A stretch of 64,000 nt of DNA from contig MGWH01000003.1 of the NCBI GenBank assembly GCA_001800905.1, forward strand, positions 62,001 through 126,000. The letters are read 5' to 3'. Of this stretch, positions 40,506 to 51,480 are shown in pieces. The stretch's first letter is position 1; each line of letters begins with the position of its first letter. The translations under genes were made by a program, and so were the position numbers. Origin of the DNA: Flavobacteria bacterium GWA2_35_26. GTDB taxonomy: Bacteria > Bacteroidota > Bacteroidia > Flavobacteriales > Flavobacteriaceae. The notes beneath the pieces are model-generated. The model was not told where the DNA came from. It ran no database searches and saw nothing but the letters and a program-made list of their open reading frames with translations.

Positions 40506-40513
40506 TATATTTG
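40506..40513 (+). promoter_or_regulatory. Putative -7 box TATATTTG upstream of the zinc-ribbon/HTH gene
   Basis: Exact TAnnTTTG match; lies inside the ORF-track N-terminal extension and favours ATG 40547. Confidence 0.55.
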
Positions 40514-40546
40514 CTAATTTATTATATTTATGCAAAATTTATATAT

Positions 40547-40966
40547 ATGGAAATTTTAAGCTGTCCGAAATGCCAAAATAATCAGATCATTAAAAGCGGT
40601 ATAATCAACAACAAACAAAGGTATTTATGTAAAAAATGTAACTATTTTTTTACGGTAAACAAAATAGGTAAAAAGATAGACGATTACTATGTTACCAAAG
40701 CATTACAATTGTATTTAGAAGGATTGAGTTTTCGCGAAATTGAACGTATTATCGGGGTGTCACACGTTACCATTAGTAATTGGGTGAAAAGTTTTAACAT
40801 CAAAAAACCATCTCAAACCAACTACCATCCTACTTATAAGATCTTTAATCATTTAGAACTGGTAGAATACCTAAAAAACAAAGAATTACTTTCTGGAGCT
40901 GGGATGATAATTACGGAACTTGGAGACAAATTTATGCTTATAAAATGGGAGCGTTTTAAAGATTAA
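40547..40966 (+). CDS. IS1-InsA-like zinc-ribbon plus HTH protein without a transposase catalytic domain (putative domesticated DNA-binding regulator)
   Basis: 'CPKCQNNQIIKSGIINNKQRYLCKKCNYFF' (CxxC...CxxC) then HTH 'LYLEGLSFREIERIIGVSHVTISNWVKSF'; 139 aa, no DDE domain. Confidence 0.8.
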   Translation: MEILSCPKCQNNQIIKSGIINNKQRYLCKKCNYFFTVNKIGKKIDDYYVTKALQLYLEGLSFREIERIIGVSHVTISNWVKSFNIKKPSQTNYHPTYKIFNHLELVEYLKNKELLSGAGMIITELGDKFMLIKWERFKD

Positions 40967-41074
40967 CTATAGTAGTTTACATAAAAGTATATAATAATTT
41001 TTTTTATTCCAAAAATAAATCAATTTGGCAGTGTGAAAACTAACCCTTTTACTAACCAAACCAAAAAAATTATT

Positions 41075-42355
41075 ATGAAAAAACGTTATTTACTCCTTTT
41101 AGCTGCTGTAGCTTCTTTTAAAGGATATTCACAAACACCAGCCGCACCTGCGCCTGTAGCAAATGACTACAGTATCACTTGGTACGGATTTGTAAGAACT
41201 GATTATATGTGGGACACCCGAAAATCAGCTCAAGTAAGAGAAGACCATTTGAATTTATACCCTTTAGATAAATCAATAAATGCAGGTGACGGGAAAGATG
41301 CTAACGCTGTTGGACAATCTAACTTTTTATCTGTTGTTTCACGTTTAGGAGTGAAAATGAAAGGACCAGATGTGTGGGGTGCTAAAGTAAGTGGAACCCT
41401 TGAAGGTGATTTCTTTGGAAACTTTGAAAATGCTTCAACAAGCACAACTACTGTAGGTTTATTGAGACTACGTCATGCCTACGCACAATTAGATTGGAAA
41501 AAAACTTCCTTAACAATGGGACAAACTTGGTACCCAACTTTTATTCCTGAAGTATTTCCTGGCGTAGCTAATTTTAGTACCGGAATTATGTTCAACCCTT
41601 TTGGATGGGCTTCTCAGGTTAAATTAAAACAAAACTTAAGCAAAGACCTTTCGATTAGTTTTACTGCGTATAAAGAACGTGAGTTTACTACTTCGGGACC
41701 TGGAACACAAAATTCGGCTTCTATTAACTCAGCTATTCCATCAATTAATACCCAATTACAATACAAAGGAAAAAATGTATTTATGGGAGCTGGTGTCGAA
41801 GTTAAATCGCTACAACCAAGAACCGATAACGGCTTAACTGGAACTGCTAAGAAAAATACCACTGAAAAAGCGAATAGTACTACTATTTTTGGATACGGAA
41901 AATACACTAACGACAATATCACAATTAAAGCCTATGGAATTTCAGGTGGCAATTTATTCAACATGGTAATGCTAGGAGGATACATTGGTTCAACTGCAAA
42001 TGGAATCGAATCGTATGAAGCGACTAAAACGTCTGCTTTTTGGATAGACATTGCAAGTAATGGTAAATCAGTGGCTCCTGGAATTTTCTTCGGAAGATCA
42101 CAAAACAATGGAGCTGACAAAGCTGGAACGGTGGCTTACGGAAGAGGAATTGGGGTAAATGGAGCTAGAATGGTAGATAATGTTTGGAGACTTTCTGGAC
42201 GTATCGACTTCAAGAAAAACAAATTTAGAATTTCTCCAGAGTTGGAATTAACTTCAGCTGATTGGGGAGCTTCTGATTCGTATGGAAAAGCAACCGGTGC
42301 TTTAACTAACGTAAGCAACTTTAGAACAATGGTATCTTGTGTATACACATTTTAA
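41075..42355 (+). CDS. DcaP-like outer membrane porin
   Basis: Signal peptide, 'YSITWYGFVRTDYMWDTRKS', 'KVSGTLEGDFFGNFENASTSTTTVGLLRLRHAYAQLDWKKTSLTMGQTWYPTFIPEVFPGVANFSTG'; ends in an aromatic residue (VYTF). Confidence 0.78.
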   Translation: MKKRYLLLLAAVASFKGYSQTPAAPAPVANDYSITWYGFVRTDYMWDTRKSAQVREDHLNLYPLDKSINAGDGKDANAVGQSNFLSVVSRLGVKMKGPDVWGAKVSGTLEGDFFGNFENASTSTTTVGLLRLRHAYAQLDWKKTSLTMGQTWYPTFIPEVFPGVANFSTGIMFNPFGWASQVKLKQNLSKDLSISFTAYKEREFTTSGPGTQNSASINSAIPSINTQLQYKGKNVFMGAGVEVKSLQPRTDNGLTGTAKKNTTEKANSTTIFGYGKYTNDNITIKAYGISGGNLFNMVMLGGYIGSTANGIESYEATKTSAFWIDIASNGKSVAPGIFFGRSQNNGADKAGTVAYGRGIGVNGARMVDNVWRLSGRIDFKKNKFRISPELELTSADWGASDSYGKATGALTNVSNFRTMVSCVYTF

Positions 42356-42391: not shown

Positions 42392-43960
42392 ATGAATGAA
42401 AACAAAAAAAGCTCCTTATGGACCGTAATTGGAGCGTCTTCAGTAGGTACCATGATCGAATGGTATGATTTTTACATCTTTGGTAGTTTAGCTACTATTA
42501 TTTCAACCAAATTTTTCCCTTCAGACAATCCAACTGCTGCCTTCTTATCTACTTTGGCAACATTTGCTGCAGGTTTTGTTGTGCGTCCTTTTGGAGCCTT
42601 ATTCTTTGGTCGTCTAGGCGATTTAATTGGACGTAAATATACGTTCATGGTTACTTTAGTGTTAATGGGTGGAGCTACTTTCTTAATAGGATGTATCCCA
42701 AGTTATGAGTCAATTGGATTCTTAGCACCAACCTTAGTATTAATTTTACGTTTGCTTCAAGGTCTTGCTCTTGGTGGGGAATACGGTGGTGCTGCGACTT
42801 ATGTAGCTGAACATGCCGGACCAGGTCAAAGAGGATATTGGACTTCTTGGATTCAAACTACAGCTACAATTGGTTTATTTGTTTCTCTTATGGTAATCAT
42901 GGCTACAAAAAGCGCTATGTCCAAAGAAGCATTTGAAGATTGGGGATGGAGAGTTCCGTTTTGGGTATCTATCTTAATGATTCTAGTTTCTTACTTAATT
43001 CGTAAAAACATGAGCGAGTCTCCTGAATTTGCAAAAGTAAAAGCAGAAGGAAAAACTTCTAAAAACCCATTAAAAGAAAGTTTTGGAAACAAATTGAACT
43101 TCAAATTTGTATTGTTAGCTTTATTTGGAATCGTAATGGGTCAAGGTGTAGTTTGGTACACTGGACAATTTTACGCTATGAGTTTTATTGAAAAAGTAAT
43201 GGGTCTTTCTGATCAAGTGGGAGACATTATGATGTATGCTATTTTAATGGCTACGCCTTTCTTCGTATTCTTTGGATGGATTTCTGATAAAATTGGTAGA
43301 AAATGGTTAATGCTTGCTGGTATTTTGATTGCCGTTATTGCCTACAGACCTATTTATAGAGCGATGTATGAAACAACAAGCATCAAAAACAAAACTGAAA
43401 TCGAAGCTAAAACAGTAGTTCTTGCTGAGACAAAAGAAAATAAAGCTAAAGCACTAGATTCAGTGTATACTACCACTAAAGAATTTACAGATGGAGCGAC
43501 TTGGAAAGAAGTAAAAACTGTAACTTTAGAAAATGGTGTAGCTAAAATTGGTGATGACGGAAAACCAAAAGTAGAAGTTAAGAAAACAATGGTGGTAAAT
43601 GAATCAGACAAATGGACTTTAGTTTGGTTAGTTTTCATTCAAATCTTCTTAGTGACTGTAGTTTACGGACCAACAGCGGCTTTCTTAGTAGAGTTGTTCC
43701 CTGCAAAAATTCGTTATACTTCGATGTCTTTACCGTACCACATTGGTAACGGAATCTTTGGAGGATTGCTTCCTGCAGTAGCTACTTCATTAGTAGCAGC
43801 AGCAACCAAAGCAAACGATGCAGCAGCAGAAGCTGGTCAAGCAGTTGCAGTAGCTGAACCGTATTTGCAAGGACTTTGGTACCCAATTATTATTGGAGCC
43901 ATCTGTTTCATTATCGGAGCTATTTATGTAGATGGTAAAAGTACCTCTCACAAACACTAA
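42392..43960 (+). CDS. MFS transporter, metabolite:H+ symporter (MHS)-like, with a large periplasmic insertion
   Basis: 'VGTMIEWYDFYIFGSLATIISTKFFP', 'FGALFFGRLGDLIGRKYTFMVTLVLMGGATFLIG', 'RLLQGLALGGEYGGAATYVAEHA'. Confidence 0.92.
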   Translation: MNENKKSSLWTVIGASSVGTMIEWYDFYIFGSLATIISTKFFPSDNPTAAFLSTLATFAAGFVVRPFGALFFGRLGDLIGRKYTFMVTLVLMGGATFLIGCIPSYESIGFLAPTLVLILRLLQGLALGGEYGGAATYVAEHAGPGQRGYWTSWIQTTATIGLFVSLMVIMATKSAMSKEAFEDWGWRVPFWVSILMILVSYLIRKNMSESPEFAKVKAEGKTSKNPLKESFGNKLNFKFVLLALFGIVMGQGVVWYTGQFYAMSFIEKVMGLSDQVGDIMMYAILMATPFFVFFGWISDKIGRKWLMLAGILIAVIAYRPIYRAMYETTSIKNKTEIEAKTVVLAETKENKAKALDSVYTTTKEFTDGATWKEVKTVTLENGVAKIGDDGKPKVEVKKTMVVNESDKWTLVWLVFIQIFLVTVVYGPTAAFLVELFPAKIRYTSMSLPYHIGNGIFGGLLPAVATSLVAAATKANDAAAEAGQAVAVAEPYLQGLWYPIIIGAICFIIGAIYVDGKSTSHKH

Positions 43961-43992: not shown

Positions 43993-44214
43993 ATGAACGC
44001 AATAAAAAAATTATTAGGGATTGTGTGGATCGGTTTAGGTCTTGCAGCTGGATATTATCTATTGATTAACCAAGCTATTCCAAAATTTGAGTCAGGAAAA
44101 CCAGAAGATATGATTCCTGCAATTATTTACACTTTTATTCTTGCACCAATTATCGTGGGTGGTTTAGGTATCTTTGGATACTACTCACTTACAGGAGAAT
44201 TTAGCGATAAATAA
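43993..44214 (+). CDS. Small two-TM membrane protein following the MFS transporter (DUF6814-like)
   Basis: 73 aa, 'AIKKLLGIVWIGLGLAAGYYLLINQAIPKFESGKPEDMIPAIIYTFILAPIIVGGLGIFGYYSLTGEF'. Confidence 0.8.
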   Translation: MNAIKKLLGIVWIGLGLAAGYYLLINQAIPKFESGKPEDMIPAIIYTFILAPIIVGGLGIFGYYSLTGEFSDK

Positions 44215-44348: not shown

Positions 44349-44543
44349 ATGAAAAAAAGACACGAACAAAAGCTGGTTATTCTTTCAATGCTAATGGTAT
44401 TAGCGTTGAACATGCCGCTATTGTTATTGTTTGATAGTGCTGAACCTTTTTTAGGTTTTCCAATTGTATACATCTATATATTTTCGGCTTGGTTGTTTTC
44501 TATTGGCACCACCTACTTAATCATCAAGAGATATTATGAATAG
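44349..44543 (+). CDS. Small two-TM membrane protein overlapping the SSS-histidine kinase gene
   Basis: 64 aa, two hydrophobic helices; 8-nt overlap with the kinase start. Confidence 0.75.
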   Translation: MKKRHEQKLVILSMLMVLALNMPLLLLFDSAEPFLGFPIVYIYIFSAWLFSIGTTYLIIKRYYE

Positions 44544-47241
44544 TGTAGGCCTTTTAATTATTTTAGTATTGTATATGCTAATCCTTTTTTACATTGCCTA
44601 CTGGGCAGAAAAAAGAGGGCATTCCAGATGGACTAATAATCCCTACATTTATTCTCTTTCGTTAGCGGTTTACTGTACCGCTTGGACGTATTACGGAAGT
44701 ATTGGCGTAGCAGCTAATTCCGGTTTAAGTTATTTGCCTATTTATTTAGGTCCCATAATTATCATTCCTACTTGGATGATTATTTTAAAAAAAATCATTC
44801 GAATTTCAAGAGTAAATAAAATTTCTAGTATTGCTGATTTCATTTCGTTGAGATACGGCAATGATAGATTCTTAGGCGCCTTAGTTACCATTGTGTGTAT
44901 CTTTGGTATTGTGCCTTATATTGCTTTGCAACTAAAGTCCATTTCGGACACTTTTCATATTGTTACCAAAACCGAATCCAGTCCTAACATTTTTTATGAC
45001 ACCACCACCTATGCTTGTATTGCGCTAGCCCTATTTGCTTCTTATTACGGAACTCGCTATGTCGATGCTTCTGAAAAAAGACGTGGTATTGTAACTGCTG
45101 TTGCATTGGAATCAATTCTAAAATTGGTATTCTTTTTAATTATTGGAATCTATGTTACCTACTTTGTATTTGATGGATTCGATGACATATATATTAAAGC
45201 TTCGGTGTTAGAAAATTTCGACAAAAAAAATTCCATCGGAGGTTTGACAGGTGCTATCAATTGGTTTTTTCTTTGCATCCTGTCCATGTTTGCTATATTT
45301 CTTTTGCCAAGACAATTCCATACTGCAATTGTAGAAAACAACAAAGAAACGCACCTTAAAACAGCCATGTGGTTGTTCCCATTGTACTTGTTGTTGTTTA
45401 ATATTTTTGTTTTTCCAATCGCTTGGGGAGGCAATATTTTATTTGAAGGGAAAGGATTGAATTCAGACACTTATTCCTTATTGATTCCGCAATTTTTCAA
45501 TAATAATATACTTACGGTTTTAGTATTTCTTGGCGGATTTTCAGCGGCAATTTCGATGATTATTGTTTCTTCAATTGCCTTAGCAACTATGCTTAGTAAT
45601 AACTTATTAATTCCATACGGATTTGTAGGAAGGTTGCGAAACAAATCACAAGAAAAAAACAATAACCGAATCGTAAGAAGTAGAAAGATTGGTATCTTTT
45701 TACTCATTATTTTATCTTATGCAATTTACAAAATTTTCATCTTAGATTACTCTCTTGTATCTATCGGACTGGTTTCTTTTGTGGTGATTGCCCAATTAGC
45801 CCCTGCCTTTTTTGGAGCGATATTTTGGAGAAGAGGTTCCAACAAAGGAGCGATTACAGGTATTATTATCGGCTTTTTAATTTGTTGTTATACTTTATTA
45901 GCTCCATATGCATTAGGTATTACCAATTCAACCAGTCTGTTCTTCAAAGAAGGCCCCTGGGGAATCGAATTATTGAAACCGTTTCAGCTATTTGGATTGG
46001 ATTATTTAGATCCTATTCCGCATGCATTATTTTGGAGTTTATTCTTCAATACAATCGGATTTGCTGCTGTTTCTGTAAGTTTCAAAGGCAATTATAGAGA
46101 GCGTAATTATGCCGAAATGTTTGTTGATATTGATAAATACATTACCAATCACGAAGACGCATTTGTTTGGAAAGGAACGGCGTACGTGTCAGATATAGAA
46201 AAAGTGTTACAACGATTCCTTGGGGAAGAAAGAACCAAACGCGCCTTATCTATTTTCAATTTAAAATACAATATTGACAAAAATGTAGCAACAGCAGATG
46301 CGCGTTTTATAAAGTTTGCCGAAAATTTATTGACGGGTCATATTGGTACGGCTTCTGCCAAAATCTTGATCGCCAGTGTAGTGAAAGAAGACGAAATTAG
46401 TTTACCCGAAGTGTTACGAATTTTAGAAGAATCGAAAGAAAATATCATCATCAATAAGAAGCTAACCGACACTTCAAACGAATTGCAAAAAATATCAGAG
46501 CAATTAAAAGTCGCCAATGAAGAGCTGGTTAAAAAAGACATTCAAAAAGACGAATTTTTAGATACGGTTACCCACGAGTTGCGTACGCCGATAACTGCTA
46601 TTAGAGCCGCAAGTGAAATTTTGCATGACGATGAAGAGGTGCCTTTTGAAGTGCGCAAACAATTCTTGCAAAACATCATTTCAGAATCGGATCGTTTGAA
46701 TCGTTTGATCGATAAAATCTTGGATTTAGAAAAATTTGAAACAGGAAAACAGAAGATCTATCTCTCCAGAAATAATATTGCATTAACAGTAGAAAAAACA
46801 TTAGAATCAGTTAAACAACTGATTGCAAATAAAAAAATACAAGTAGAATTTGAAGATGCTGGAAAAGAGATCAGAGCATTTTATGATGAAGAACGTATCA
46901 TTCAAGTAGTTCACAATTTGCTATCCAATGCGATCAAATTTTCAGCTGTAACTGACGGATTAATAAGCATTCATATTACAGAAAACGAATCTAATGTTGC
47001 CGTCACGATTCACAATAATGGCAAAGGAATCAAAAGTGAAGATTTTGAAGCCATCTTTGATAAATTCTATCAATCGAGAAATCAAAATGTCAAAAAACCA
47101 ATTGGTAGCGGACTAGGATTAGCCATTTGCAAACAAATTATTGAACATCACAAAGGCGCAATTTGGGCCGAAAACAATGTCAAAGAAGGAGCCACTTTTG
47201 TCTTCACATTACCCAACTACAATACAACCGAAAACAACTAA
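44536..47241 (+). CDS. Sodium:solute symporter (SLC5)-STAC-histidine kinase, CbrA/CrbS type
   Basis: About 12 N-terminal TMs with SSS motifs, STAC-like linker 'RRFLGEERTKRALSIFNL', HisKA 'FLDTVTHELRTPITAIRAASEIL', HATPase 'NLLSNAIKFS', 'GSGLGLAICKQIIEHHKG'. Confidence 0.93.
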   Translation: MNSVGLLIILVLYMLILFYIAYWAEKRGHSRWTNNPYIYSLSLAVYCTAWTYYGSIGVAANSGLSYLPIYLGPIIIIPTWMIILKKIIRISRVNKISSIADFISLRYGNDRFLGALVTIVCIFGIVPYIALQLKSISDTFHIVTKTESSPNIFYDTTTYACIALALFASYYGTRYVDASEKRRGIVTAVALESILKLVFFLIIGIYVTYFVFDGFDDIYIKASVLENFDKKNSIGGLTGAINWFFLCILSMFAIFLLPRQFHTAIVENNKETHLKTAMWLFPLYLLLFNIFVFPIAWGGNILFEGKGLNSDTYSLLIPQFFNNNILTVLVFLGGFSAAISMIIVSSIALATMLSNNLLIPYGFVGRLRNKSQEKNNNRIVRSRKIGIFLLIILSYAIYKIFILDYSLVSIGLVSFVVIAQLAPAFFGAIFWRRGSNKGAITGIIIGFLICCYTLLAPYALGITNSTSLFFKEGPWGIELLKPFQLFGLDYLDPIPHALFWSLFFNTIGFAAVSVSFKGNYRERNYAEMFVDIDKYITNHEDAFVWKGTAYVSDIEKVLQRFLGEERTKRALSIFNLKYNIDKNVATADARFIKFAENLLTGHIGTASAKILIASVVKEDEISLPEVLRILEESKENIIINKKLTDTSNELQKISEQLKVANEELVKKDIQKDEFLDTVTHELRTPITAIRAASEILHDDEEVPFEVRKQFLQNIISESDRLNRLIDKILDLEKFETGKQKIYLSRNNIALTVEKTLESVKQLIANKKIQVEFEDAGKEIRAFYDEERIIQVVHNLLSNAIKFSAVTDGLISIHITENESNVAVTIHNNGKGIKSEDFEAIFDKFYQSRNQNVKKPIGSGLGLAICKQIIEHHKGAIWAENNVKEGATFVFTLPNYNTTENN

Positions 47242-47242
47242 G

Positions 47243-47611
47243 ATGATGAAAAAGATACTAATCGTAGATGACGAGCCGAACATCGTAATGGCGTTAGAAT
47301 ACACTTTCAAAAAAAATAATTTTGAAGTATTCATTGCACGTGATGGACAAGAAGCATTGGAAATTTTAGAAAAACAATTACCTGATGTCATCATTCTTGA
47401 TGTGATGATGCCAATGGTTGACGGATATGCCACCTTAGAAGAAATTAAAAAAGACGAACGTTTAGCGCATTGCAAAGTGATTTTTCTTTCGGCAAAAAAC
47501 AAAGAAAGTGATATTGAAAAAGGGATGAATTTAGGAGCTAATTTATATGTCGTCAAGCCTTTTTCTGCTAAAAAATTAGTAGAACAAGTACATGAATTGA
47601 TCGAAAATTAG
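47243..47611 (+). CDS. Receiver-only response regulator
   Basis: 'KKILIVDDEPNIVMALEYTF', 'VIILDVMMPMVDGYATLEEIK', 'FLSAKNKESDIEKGMNLGANLYVVKPFSAKKL'; ends right after the receiver domain (122 aa). Confidence 0.93.
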   Translation: MMKKILIVDDEPNIVMALEYTFKKNNFEVFIARDGQEALEILEKQLPDVIILDVMMPMVDGYATLEEIKKDERLAHCKVIFLSAKNKESDIEKGMNLGANLYVVKPFSAKKLVEQVHELIEN

Positions 47612-47637: not shown

Positions 47638-49536
47638 ATGAATTACAAAGATACCTATACCGCAAGTACTGAAAATCCAGAAGCATTCTGGAAAGATCAA
47701 GCCGACGCAATAAGTTGGTTTACAAAACCTGAATCCATTTTATCTTCGGATGAAAATGGATATCCGCTTTGGTATAAAGACGGCAAATTAAACGTATGTT
47801 ATTTAGCATTAGACAAACACATTGAAGATGGTTATGGCGATGAAATCGCTTTAATTTATGATTCGCCTGTAACACAAACTACTAAAAAATACACCTTCTT
47901 AGAAGTAAAAACCGAAGTGGCTAAACTCGCTGGAGGAATGCAATCTTTGGGTTTAAAAAAAGGCGATACCACCGTTATTTATATGCCGATGATTCCGCAA
48001 GCGGCCTTTGCAATGTTGGCTTGTGCGCGAATTGGCGTTACGCATTCGGTAGTTTTTGGAGGATTTGCTCCTCACGAATTAGCAATCCGAATTGACGATT
48101 GCAAACCAAGAGCGATTATTACAGCCTCATCGGGAATTGAAATTGACCGATTGATTGCTTACAAACCTTTAGTTGACGAAGCGATTCAATTGGCCGAGCA
48201 CAAACCTAAAAAAGTGATTATCCTCAACAGAAAATTAGGAGCAAAAGTACCATTCAAAAAATACGATGTAGATTATGATGCATTAGTTTATGGATCTGAA
48301 GAAGCCGAATGTGTGCCATTAAATTCTACTCATCCTTTGTATGTATTATATACTTCGGGAACTACTGGTAAACCAAAAGGGATCGTACGTGATTCGGGTG
48401 GTTATGCAACTGCGCTAAAATATTCCATGCAAAACGTGTACAACGCCAAACCAGGTGAAGTATTTTGGGCGGCATCAGATGTGGGCTGGGTTGTAGGGCA
48501 CAGTTATATTGTATATGGACCACTAATTAATAGAAATACGACCATAATTTTCGAAGGAAAACCAATCAAAACTCCGGATGCCAGTACTTTCTGGAGAATG
48601 ATTGAAGAACATAAAGTAAGCGTGATGTTTACGGCTCCAACAGCGATTCGCGCGATCAAAAAAGAAGATCCAAACGGAGAATTTATCAAAAAATACGATT
48701 TGAGTTCGTTAAAAATTCAATTCTTAGCAGGGGAACGTTGTGATGTAGCCACACTCGAATGGTACCAAGAACATATTCCTGTTCCGGCAATTGACCATTG
48801 GTGGCAAACCGAAACAGGTTGGCCAATCGTTGCCAATATGATGGGAATAGAATATTTGCCTATCAAACCGGGATCTGTTGGAAAAGCAGTTCCAGGATAC
48901 GATATTCGAATTTTTAGTGAAAACGGAACTGAAGTTGGCCCCAACGAAGAAGGTTACGTGGTAATTAAATTACCATTGCCTCCAGGAACCTTATTGGATT
49001 TATGGAAAGACAACCCGAGATTCAAAGCGGGTTATTTAGAAAAATTCCCAGGTTATTATTTTTCAGGTGATGGAGGTTTCAAAGATGACGATGAATATAT
49101 TTTTATAACCGGTCGTGTTGATGACGTAATCAATGTAGCGGGTCACCGCCTTTCTACCGCTGAAATGGAAGAAATTGTAGCATCGCATTCGTCAGTGGCA
49201 GAATGTGCCGTTATTGGAATACACGATGAATTGAAAGGACAAACTCCTTTGGCCTTGGTGGTTATCAAACACGGAGAAGACATCGAACATTTCCAATTGG
49301 AACAAGAAATTGTAAAATTAGTTCGCCAACAAATTGGCGCGGTTGCTTCCTTACGTAATGTGGTTATTGTGCACCGTTTGCCAAAAACGCGCTCCGGAAA
49401 AATTCTACGCAAACTAATGCGAAGCATTACTGACGGAGAAGACTATCAAATTCCATCTACTATCGATGATGAGGCGATTGTGGGTGAAATCATCGAGGTG
49501 TTGAAAAAATATAAAATTGGAAGTTATAGCAAATAA
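47638..49536 (+). CDS. Acyl-CoA synthetase, propionyl-CoA synthetase (PrpE/ACSS3)-like
   Basis: 'DAISWFTKPESILSSDENGYPLWYKDGKLNVCYLALDKHIEDG', 'LYTSGTTGKPKGIVRDSGGYATALKYSMQNVY', 'HRLPKTRSGKILRKLMRSI'. Confidence 0.87.
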   Translation: MNYKDTYTASTENPEAFWKDQADAISWFTKPESILSSDENGYPLWYKDGKLNVCYLALDKHIEDGYGDEIALIYDSPVTQTTKKYTFLEVKTEVAKLAGGMQSLGLKKGDTTVIYMPMIPQAAFAMLACARIGVTHSVVFGGFAPHELAIRIDDCKPRAIITASSGIEIDRLIAYKPLVDEAIQLAEHKPKKVIILNRKLGAKVPFKKYDVDYDALVYGSEEAECVPLNSTHPLYVLYTSGTTGKPKGIVRDSGGYATALKYSMQNVYNAKPGEVFWAASDVGWVVGHSYIVYGPLINRNTTIIFEGKPIKTPDASTFWRMIEEHKVSVMFTAPTAIRAIKKEDPNGEFIKKYDLSSLKIQFLAGERCDVATLEWYQEHIPVPAIDHWWQTETGWPIVANMMGIEYLPIKPGSVGKAVPGYDIRIFSENGTEVGPNEEGYVVIKLPLPPGTLLDLWKDNPRFKAGYLEKFPGYYFSGDGGFKDDDEYIFITGRVDDVINVAGHRLSTAEMEEIVASHSSVAECAVIGIHDELKGQTPLALVVIKHGEDIEHFQLEQEIVKLVRQQIGAVASLRNVVIVHRLPKTRSGKILRKLMRSITDGEDYQIPSTIDDEAIVGEIIEVLKKYKIGSYSK

Positions 49537-49572: not shown

Positions 49573-51480
49573 ATGAGTTATTATAAAATTGAAAATCTAG
49601 AAGAATATTTCAAACATTACAAAAAATCAATTCGTGAACCTAAAAAATTCTGGGACCGAATTGCCTCTGAAAACTTTACTTGGTACCAAGAATGGGACAA
49701 CGTAATTGATTTCAATATGGCCGAAGCCGAAATTAAATGGTTTACCAATGCCAAAGTGAATATTACAAAAAACTGTATCGACAGACACCTTGCTAAAAGA
49801 GGCGAAAAAACAGCGATCATTTTTGAACCGAATGATCCAAAAGAAGAGGCACTCCATATTACGTACAATGAATTGTATGAACGAGTCTCAAAAATGGCGA
49901 ATGTACTGCGTGAGCAAGGCGTCAAAAAAGGAGATCGCGTCTGCATCTATCTACCAATGATACCTGAATTAGCCGTTTCGCTATTGGCCTGTGCTAGAAT
50001 TGGAGCCATTCACTCGGTCGTTTTTGCTGGATTTTCTGCATCGGCAGTAGCTTCAAGAATCAATGATTGCGAATGTAAAATGGTCATCACTTCCGATGGA
50101 AGTTACCGCGGTAACAAAGCGATTGATTTAAAAGGCATTGTAGACGAAGCGCTAGAAAAATGTCCAACAGTTGAAAAAGTTTTGGTTGCCAAAAGAACCA
50201 ACACCAACGTCAATATGAAAGCCGGCCGTGACCAATGGTTACAACCCCTTTTAGACGATGCAATGAACACCAACGTTGCCGAAATTATGGATGCTGAAGA
50301 TCCATTATTTATCCTTTATACTTCAGGTTCTACAGGAAAACCAAAAGGAATGGTACATACAACCGCTGGATATATGGTGTATACTGCTTACACTTTTAAA
50401 AATGTATTTAGCTACGAAGAGAATGATATTTTCTGGTGTACTGCCGATATTGGTTGGATTACAGGTCACTCGTACATTCTGTACGGACCATTATTGAACG
50501 GAGCAACTACCGTAATTTTTGAAGGAGTTCCTTCGTATCCTGACTTCAGTCGCTTCTGGGAAGTAATCGAAAAACACCAAGTTACTCAATTCTATACAGC
50601 ACCAACAGCTATTCGTGCATTGGCTAAAGAAAGCATTGAATACGTTCAAAAATACCCTTTACAATCGTTAAAAGTTATTGGTTCGGTAGGTGAGCCAATC
50701 AACGAAGAAGCTTGGCACTGGTACAATGATCACGTTGGAGGAAAAAGATGTCCAGTTGTTGACACTTGGTGGCAAACCGAAACAGGTGGCATCATGATCT
50801 CTCCTTTGGCATTTGTAACACCAACAAAACCAACCTATGCTTCCCTTCCTCTACCTGGTATTCAACCGGTTTTAATGGATGAAAAACGCAACGAAATTGA
50901 AGGCAATCAAGTAACTGGAAGTTTGTGTATCAAATTCCCTTGGCCGAGTATTGCCAGAACCATCTGGGGCGATCACCAACGCTACAAAGAAACTTATTTT
51001 AGTGCTTTCCCTGGTAAATATTTTACGGGTGACGGAGCCTTACGTGACGAAGTAGGATACTATAGAATTACGGGGCGTGTAGATGATGTGGTAATTGTTT
51101 CAGGACATAATTTAGGAACTGCACCAATTGAAGACGCGATTAATGAGCACCCCGCAGTAGCTGAATCAGCGATTGTAGGATTCCCTCACGATATCAAAGG
51201 AAATGCGTTATACGGATTTGTAATCTTAAAAGAATCTGGTGAATACCGCGACCGTGAAAACTTAAGCAAAGAGATTAACCAACATATTTCAGACCACATT
51301 GGGCCTATTGCCAAATTGGATAAAATCCAATTCGTATCCGGTTTACCAAAAACGAGATCTGGAAAAATCATGCGTAGAATCTTGCGTAAAATTGCAGAAG
51401 GCGACTTCTCTAATTTTGGAGACATTACCACTTTATTAAATCCAGAAATTGTGGATGAAATTAAAGATGGCAAAATTTAG
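49573..51480 (+). CDS. acs: Acetyl-CoA synthetase
   Basis: 'WFTNAKVNITKNCIDRHLAKRGEKTAIIFEPND', 'LYTSGSTGKPKGMVHTTAGYMVYTAYTFKNVF', 'DTWWQTETGGIMISPL', 'GLPKTRSGKIMRRILRKIA'. Confidence 0.95.
   Translation: MSYYKIENLEEYFKHYKKSIREPKKFWDRIASENFTWYQEWDNVIDFNMAEAEIKWFTNAKVNITKNCIDRHLAKRGEKTAIIFEPNDPKEEALHITYNELYERVSKMANVLREQGVKKGDRVCIYLPMIPELAVSLLACARIGAIHSVVFAGFSASAVASRINDCECKMVITSDGSYRGNKAIDLKGIVDEALEKCPTVEKVLVAKRTNTNVNMKAGRDQWLQPLLDDAMNTNVAEIMDAEDPLFILYTSGSTGKPKGMVHTTAGYMVYTAYTFKNVFSYEENDIFWCTADIGWITGHSYILYGPLLNGATTVIFEGVPSYPDFSRFWEVIEKHQVTQFYTAPTAIRALAKESIEYVQKYPLQSLKVIGSVGEPINEEAWHWYNDHVGGKRCPVVDTWWQTETGGIMISPLAFVTPTKPTYASLPLPGIQPVLMDEKRNEIEGNQVTGSLCIKFPWPSIARTIWGDHQRYKETYFSAFPGKYFTGDGALRDEVGYYRITGRVDDVVIVSGHNLGTAPIEDAINEHPAVAESAIVGFPHDIKGNALYGFVILKESGEYRDRENLSKEINQHISDHIGPIAKLDKIQFVSGLPKTRSGKIMRRILRKIAEGDFSNFGDITTLLNPEIVDEIKDGKI

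Follow-up and report, generated by a model that had tools for sequence, protein, structure and literature searches.

The response regulator gene that directly follows a symporter-type histidine kinase gene in the 64,000-nucleotide stretch of DNA analysed here (the window) encodes only 122 aa, and this raises the question of how a signal received by the kinase could reach DNA. The genome is 2.1 Mb in size and 99.5% complete, and its nearest relatives are Flavobacterium. The original prediction was that the DNA-binding step comes from elsewhere, with a zinc-ribbon/helix-turn-helix (HTH) protein encoded at the start of the same cluster as a candidate. The genes of the cluster and two operator-like elements are listed in Table 1 in the order in which they occur.

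Table 1 Coordinates of the features of the cluster, counted from the first nucleotide of the window.
Feature	Position	Strand	Basis
Tandem operator-like element TGCTAATTTATTATAT / TGCAAAATTTATATAT, directly before HTH start codon	40512..40546	+	Gibbs motif, PWM, tandem count
Zinc-ribbon and helix-turn-helix protein, 139 aa; proposed output partner of receiver	40547..40966	+	Pfam/NCBIfam matches, co-occurrence, C-domain conservation
Inverted, degenerate copy of the element, directly after HTH stop, before porin/transporter genes	40966..40993	-	CTATA-N5-TTTACA...TATATA conserved in relatives
Outer-membrane porin-like protein	41078..42355	+	Conserved cluster position; no Pfam match
MFS metabolite/H+ symporter	42392..43960	+	Pfam Sugar_tr/MFS_1; TIGR00883 below cut-off
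DUF6814 small membrane protein, after MFS gene	43993..44214	+	PF20664, E 4e-28
64-aa hydrophobic ORF overlapping kinase start	44349..44541	+	Precedes kinase in 93/103 loci; position and size CbrX-like
SSS/SLC5-type sensor histidine kinase, 901 aa	44536..47241	+	Pfam HisKA/HATPase_c; residues 6-458 match CbrA structure 10ED, E 3.3e-57
Stand-alone receiver, no output domain, 122 aa	47243..47611	+	Pfam, ORF borders, orthologue lengths, residue alignment
acs1, acyl-CoA synthetase, nearest propionate/acetate--CoA ligases	47638..49536	+	Profile scores
acs2, acetate--CoA ligase AcsA	49573..51480	+	TIGR02188, 957 bits vs cut-off 725

That the regulator ends just past its receiver domain, as originally claimed, was confirmed by Pfam analysis, the borders of the open reading frame and the lengths of orthologues. 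Response_reg is the sole Pfam domain over the cut-off (residues 5-116, E 3.9e-31), and the reading frame extends from an ATG at 47243 to a TAG at 47609-47611. As the kinase gene stops at 47241, one base ahead of this ATG, and acs1 starts at 47638 after a gap of 26 bp, there is no space for a lost or frameshifted output domain. Intact orthologues adjoining the kinase are 118-131 aa long with a mode of 120-122 aa, and this equal length, together with the short distance to the next gene, ruled out truncation or frameshift of the gene. Receiver-only neighbours of the kinase were found in every relative examined, belonging to the Flavobacteriaceae, to other Bacteroidia families and to four families of other Bacteroidota classes; because the receiver-only length is shared by orthologues in several classes, the absence of the output domain is old and conserved. 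In an alignment of 108 orthologues the acidic pair D9/D10, the phospho-acceptor D53 and K105 are all 100% conserved, and the protein thus has the complete receiver, the catalytic residues and the lack of an output domain that define a single-domain response regulator. Judged from these sequences, the missing output domain is a real, ancient and conserved property of the receiver and no artefact.

A full-length CrbR-like DNA-binding response regulator encoded elsewhere could be the true partner of the kinase, with the small receiver as an accessory. The 12 receiver domains encoded in the genome compare with about eight sensor kinases, and orphan regulators exist, one of LuxR type (G000 C2:456637-457267), two of LytTR type and one NtrC-like, so that the inventory alone would allow a distant partner. 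We consider a distant partner very improbable, as almost all loci that carry the kinase, throughout the phylum, have the receiver as its neighbouring gene, as the catalytic residues of the receiver are invariant, and as the operator-like element found at acs promoters (see below) goes with the HTH protein. A second stand-alone receiver (118 aa) is encoded in the same genome, flanked by genes for a soluble kinase and for an AraC-type response regulator in convergent orientation (G000 C2:459530-463366, L136), perhaps representing another split-output arrangement.

The kinase is composed of a symporter domain, a linker, HisKA and HATPase_c, with no PAS match and no receiver. Although its Pfam SSF match falls just below the cut-off (22.2 vs 22.8 bits), the HisKA and HATPase_c domains and the match to structure 10ED identify it as a fusion between an SLC5/SSS symporter domain and a histidine kinase. 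A STAC domain was sought in the conserved linker (residues about 545-668), which had no convincing Pfam match and matched no STAC structure in PDB profile comparisons. A search across loci for an ORF matching both kinase and receiver found none, the kinase ending after HATPase_c.

The best profile scores of acs1 were with propionate--CoA ligase models and lie below their cut-offs, and acetate as the substrate or signal of the system is the most likely assignment from the cluster neighbours. Single ORFs of 1272-1288 aa at the usual place of acs1 and acs2 (L120:7462-11281, with coordinates following the direction of the kinase or HTH gene; L198, L199 and L276) are apparently natural fusions of two acyl-CoA synthetases. 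The transporter varies in relatives, being an MFS protein, a DUF485-like protein with an ActP-like symporter, or SatP (Gpr1_Fun34_YaaH), a member of an acetate-type permease family, while the HTH, kinase, receiver and acs genes are retained where the transporter is exchanged. SatP stands in for the porin/MFS pair between the HTH and kinase genes in L079-L081, where acs1 is absent.

Of 200 Flavobacterium genomes, 73 have the kinase, 71 have the HTH orthologue and 70 have both (70/73). The three genomes with the kinase only include two contig-edge loci (G151, G280) and G301, where broken HTH pieces lie directly ahead of a kinase without its symporter part (L132) in what looks like one joint deletion; the sole case of HTH without kinase, G281, ends at a contig edge. 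The HTH protein likewise accompanies the full-length kinase in 13/13 cases among 121 Flavobacteriaceae genomes, and the kinase in 76/76 cases in a second family, that of G480. Co-occurrence of the HTH protein with the kinase-receiver system is therefore near complete in three genome samples, though Fisher values for it overstate independence because the genomes are related. As acs2 is present in 196/200 Flavobacterium genomes, the HTH gene tracks the kinase and not the enzyme. In other Bacteroidota classes (L203, L209, L212, L216) there is no HTH gene, and the gene after that of the receiver encodes a protein that has no Pfam match, looks PAS/kinase-like by eye and is fused in L212 to a DnaQ-like exonuclease domain; this protein is a possible different output partner.

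The HTH protein consists of a part resembling the N-terminal DNA-binding part of the IS1 transposase InsA and a C-terminal beta-alpha-beta-beta domain ending ..GAGMIITELGDKFMLIKWERFKD. Pfam and NCBIfam matches were obtained to the InsA zinc ribbon, to HTH_23 and to IS1 transposase (E 3.1e-22, below the family cut-off), the zinc ribbon and HTH aligning to NF033558 over residues 6-113. Besides this lower score, it differs from InsA in being fixed in the cluster, in having a conserved C-terminal domain of its own and in lacking a transposase partner. The gene is not part of a mobile IS1 element with a catalytic InsB/DDE domain, and its synteny is fixed in about 100 genomes. An AlphaFold model used to seek a fold match for the C-terminal domain was of moderate confidence (pLDDT 72.6), and as a Foldseek comparison with the PDB gave nothing at E<=0.001, the best matches being Lrp-like with a TM of about 0.28, no fold is claimed. 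No fusion of a receiver with this HTH protein (Rosetta stone) was found in relatives. It is very probable that the HTH protein is the DNA-binding regulator of this cluster.

The C-terminal ..ITELGDKFMLIKWERF domain hardly varies as long as a receiver is present. In 100 receiver-bearing HTH sequences the last 20 residues surpass the DNA-binding part in conservation, with mean leave-out identities of 0.82 vs 0.70 in the kinase-bearing ones, and F137 is invariant. Eight genomes have the HTH gene without kinase and receiver, and a genome-wide search confirmed that a receiver orthologue is absent from all eight. In these, F137 is found in 0/8 and R136 in 1/8, but all eight retain the zinc cysteines and the core residues of the HTH. 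Five further genomes have lost the kinase and keep the receiver gene beside the transporter and acs, full-length in G778, G779, G811 and G829 and decaying in G797, and in 5/5 of these the C-terminal domain is kept. Its decay in every receiver-less genome and survival in every kinase-less, receiver-bearing one constitute strong but not conclusive sequence evidence that the C-terminal domain tracks the receiver, not the kinase.

A tree of acs2 implies a minimum of three losses of the receiver and eight of the kinase. The C-terminal RF is absent at every receiver loss and the motif is kept where the receiver gene stayed, the three (perhaps four) independent receiver losses being too few for a significant sign test. 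A C-terminal remnant of the kinase is read into the receiver ORF in L264 (G811), with the rest of the kinase gone, and L263 has a decaying receiver; the genomes that keep a receiver may have lost the kinase only recently, which leaves room for a time lag. A simple lag is argued against by L268, where the motif disappeared on a branch of only 0.032, and by rows that lack the kinase but have a receiver and that retained the motif on branches of up to 0.13.

These losses also bear on the possibility that the HTH protein regulates the cluster alone, for example through a ligand at its C-terminal domain, with the kinase and receiver acting elsewhere or post-translationally and co-occurrence reflecting inheritance as a unit. 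The HTH gene does persist beside the transporter and/or acs in L150, L224, L225, L260, L265 and L267, which have neither kinase nor receiver, and the operator-like element before it is kept in L224, L267 and L268, so that the protein can work without the pair. Regulation by the HTH protein alone is nevertheless unlikely, since its C-terminal domain decays once the receiver is gone even though the transporter and/or acs remain, and since it stays with the kinase even when the type of transporter is swapped.

An unsupervised Gibbs search of the regions ahead of the HTH gene in 43 diverse representative loci disclosed the motif TGCTAAATTANTATAT in 42 of them; relative to the start codon its usual position is -38, with a repeat at -17. 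The copies in the window, at 40512-40527 and 40531-40546, are the two best PWM matches in the 64 kb, and the tandem consensus has one match in the window vs 0 expected from shuffles. An exact inverted copy, GCTAA-N5-TATAG, follows the HTH stop codon in several distant, GC-richer loci (L208, L277, L200). The element also occurs upstream of 40/47 acs genes of HTH-bearing Flavobacterium loci that have a gap of at least 80 bp of their own before them, invariably inverted and at a distance of 80-122 bp, but upstream of 0/19 acs2 genes of HTH-less Flavobacterium. It is found at 1/55 acs genes directly following the receiver or acs1, and strict matches in HTH-less outgroup clusters number 2 in 211 kb. 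Strict sites upstream of acs are mainly confined to Flavobacterium and are mostly missing in other families.

The sharing of the element and its distribution at acs genes link the HTH protein to the acs and transporter promoters, and indicate that the predicted operator gives the missing DNA-binding link from the HTH protein to acs. The element might instead be a mere promoter element, and its TATA-rich part could belong to a promoter, but it is absent from acs genes of HTH-less congeners. The canonical Bacteroidetes promoter pattern TTG-N17-21-TANNTTTG was sought in the intergenic stretches and was rare. A second acetyl-CoA synthetase, 90% identical to acs2, is encoded elsewhere in the genome (G000 C6:229676-231580), and the 100 bp ahead of its start contain a loose operator copy, GTTAAAATAGTATAG (L378), which suggests that this gene may be controlled in trans.

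The shared operator and the dependence of the C-terminal domain on the receiver are both left unexplained if the receiver is a phosphate sink, or acts directly on the kinase, transporter or synthetases with no transcriptional control. Single-domain regulators can work via protein contact, for instance on a phosphoglycosyl transferase (PMC12802240), and the loci of other Bacteroidota classes, where a different gene, Pfam-less or exonuclease-fused, follows the receiver in place of any HTH protein, would suit such a role. For the present cluster we give it little credence.

We prefer to read the cluster as a system for sensing and taking up a carboxylate, most likely acetate, in which the response regulator is split. 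Its symporter-type kinase would sense the substrate and phosphorylate the stand-alone receiver, and the phospho-receiver would act on the InsA-like zinc-ribbon/HTH protein via its C-terminal domain, altering its activity at the GCTAA-N5-TATA operators. The tandem sites ahead of its own start codon would mediate autoregulation, and the sites before the transporter operon would be further targets. The site 80-122 bp upstream of self-promoted acs genes would be in an activator-like place, while acs1 and acs2 of the window, which follow the receiver closely, would be read through. At the level of sequence the model draws on the genes, the catalytic residues, the conserved linkage, the operator distribution and the loss of the C-terminal domain with that of the receiver; its predicted parts are the nature of the signal (acetate), the phosphotransfer, the contact between receiver and HTH protein, and the sign of control, and control of acs transcription by acetate is a candidate function suggested by linkage and operator distribution. 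As a whole, from substrate to the sites at HTH, transporter and acs, the scheme is probably correct. The original candidate for the DNA-binding step thus gained support from co-occurrence, the shared operator-like element and the tracking of the receiver by the C-terminal domain.

It also seems fairly likely, if somewhat less so than the scheme itself, that an SLC5 kinase acquired a detached, receiver-controlled output by recruitment of what was once the DNA-binding module of an IS1-type transposase, an output that has its own operator and a receiver-dependent C-terminal domain. If the model is true, Bacteroidota run the same acetate logic as known systems with the output detached from the receiver, via a domesticated transposase module. 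The named residues (R136, F137), the operator sequence and the natural series of losses make the route of a stand-alone receiver to DNA directly testable, and provide a means of predicting the acetate and carboxylate regulons of Flavobacterium and related families.

A literature search found no published description of this Bacteroidota arrangement; the characterised SLC5-kinase systems that it retrieved come from Proteobacteria and have a DNA-binding response regulator as their last component. CbrB of Pseudomonas is such a full-length DNA-binding regulator. The CbrXA-CbrB system (PMC6591292, PMC13022988, PDB 10ED) resembles the present cluster in its symporter-type kinase and the small overlapping upstream ORF, CbrX. 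Translation of CbrX is coupled to that of CbrA (PMC6591292), and the protein is packed against the CbrA symporter domain (PMC13022988). The substrate of CbrA, however, is histidine, unlike the likely acetate here. Single-domain response regulators acting by protein contact (PMC12802240, PMC8995066) share with the receiver the lack of an output domain and, as proposed for it, action through another protein, the target in this case being a cluster-encoded DNA-binding protein with its own operator.

The closest parallel is the CrbS/CrbR (MxtR/ErdR) acetate system of Vibrio, Pseudomonas and Sinorhizobium (PMC5436829, PMC5715377, PMC9100948), in which an SLC5-type histidine kinase is likewise found beside a response regulator and linked to acetyl-CoA synthetase genes. 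The original comparison with CrbR partners of CrbS as carrying a LuxR-type DNA-binding domain was fair, as the characterised CrbR and RpuR are of LuxR type (PMC9100948; for the CrbS/R and RpuS/R regulators see also PMC5436829). CrbS is a hybrid kinase with a PAS domain and its own C-terminal receiver, whereas the kinase described here has neither a PAS match nor a receiver, and in place of the LuxR-type output of CrbR there is a receiver-only regulator paired with a separate HTH protein. Because both the LuxR-type output and the hybrid kinase are missing, the cluster was not assigned to CrbS/R; it would work like CrbS/R, yet is a separate variant of the SLC5-kinase type of two-component system.
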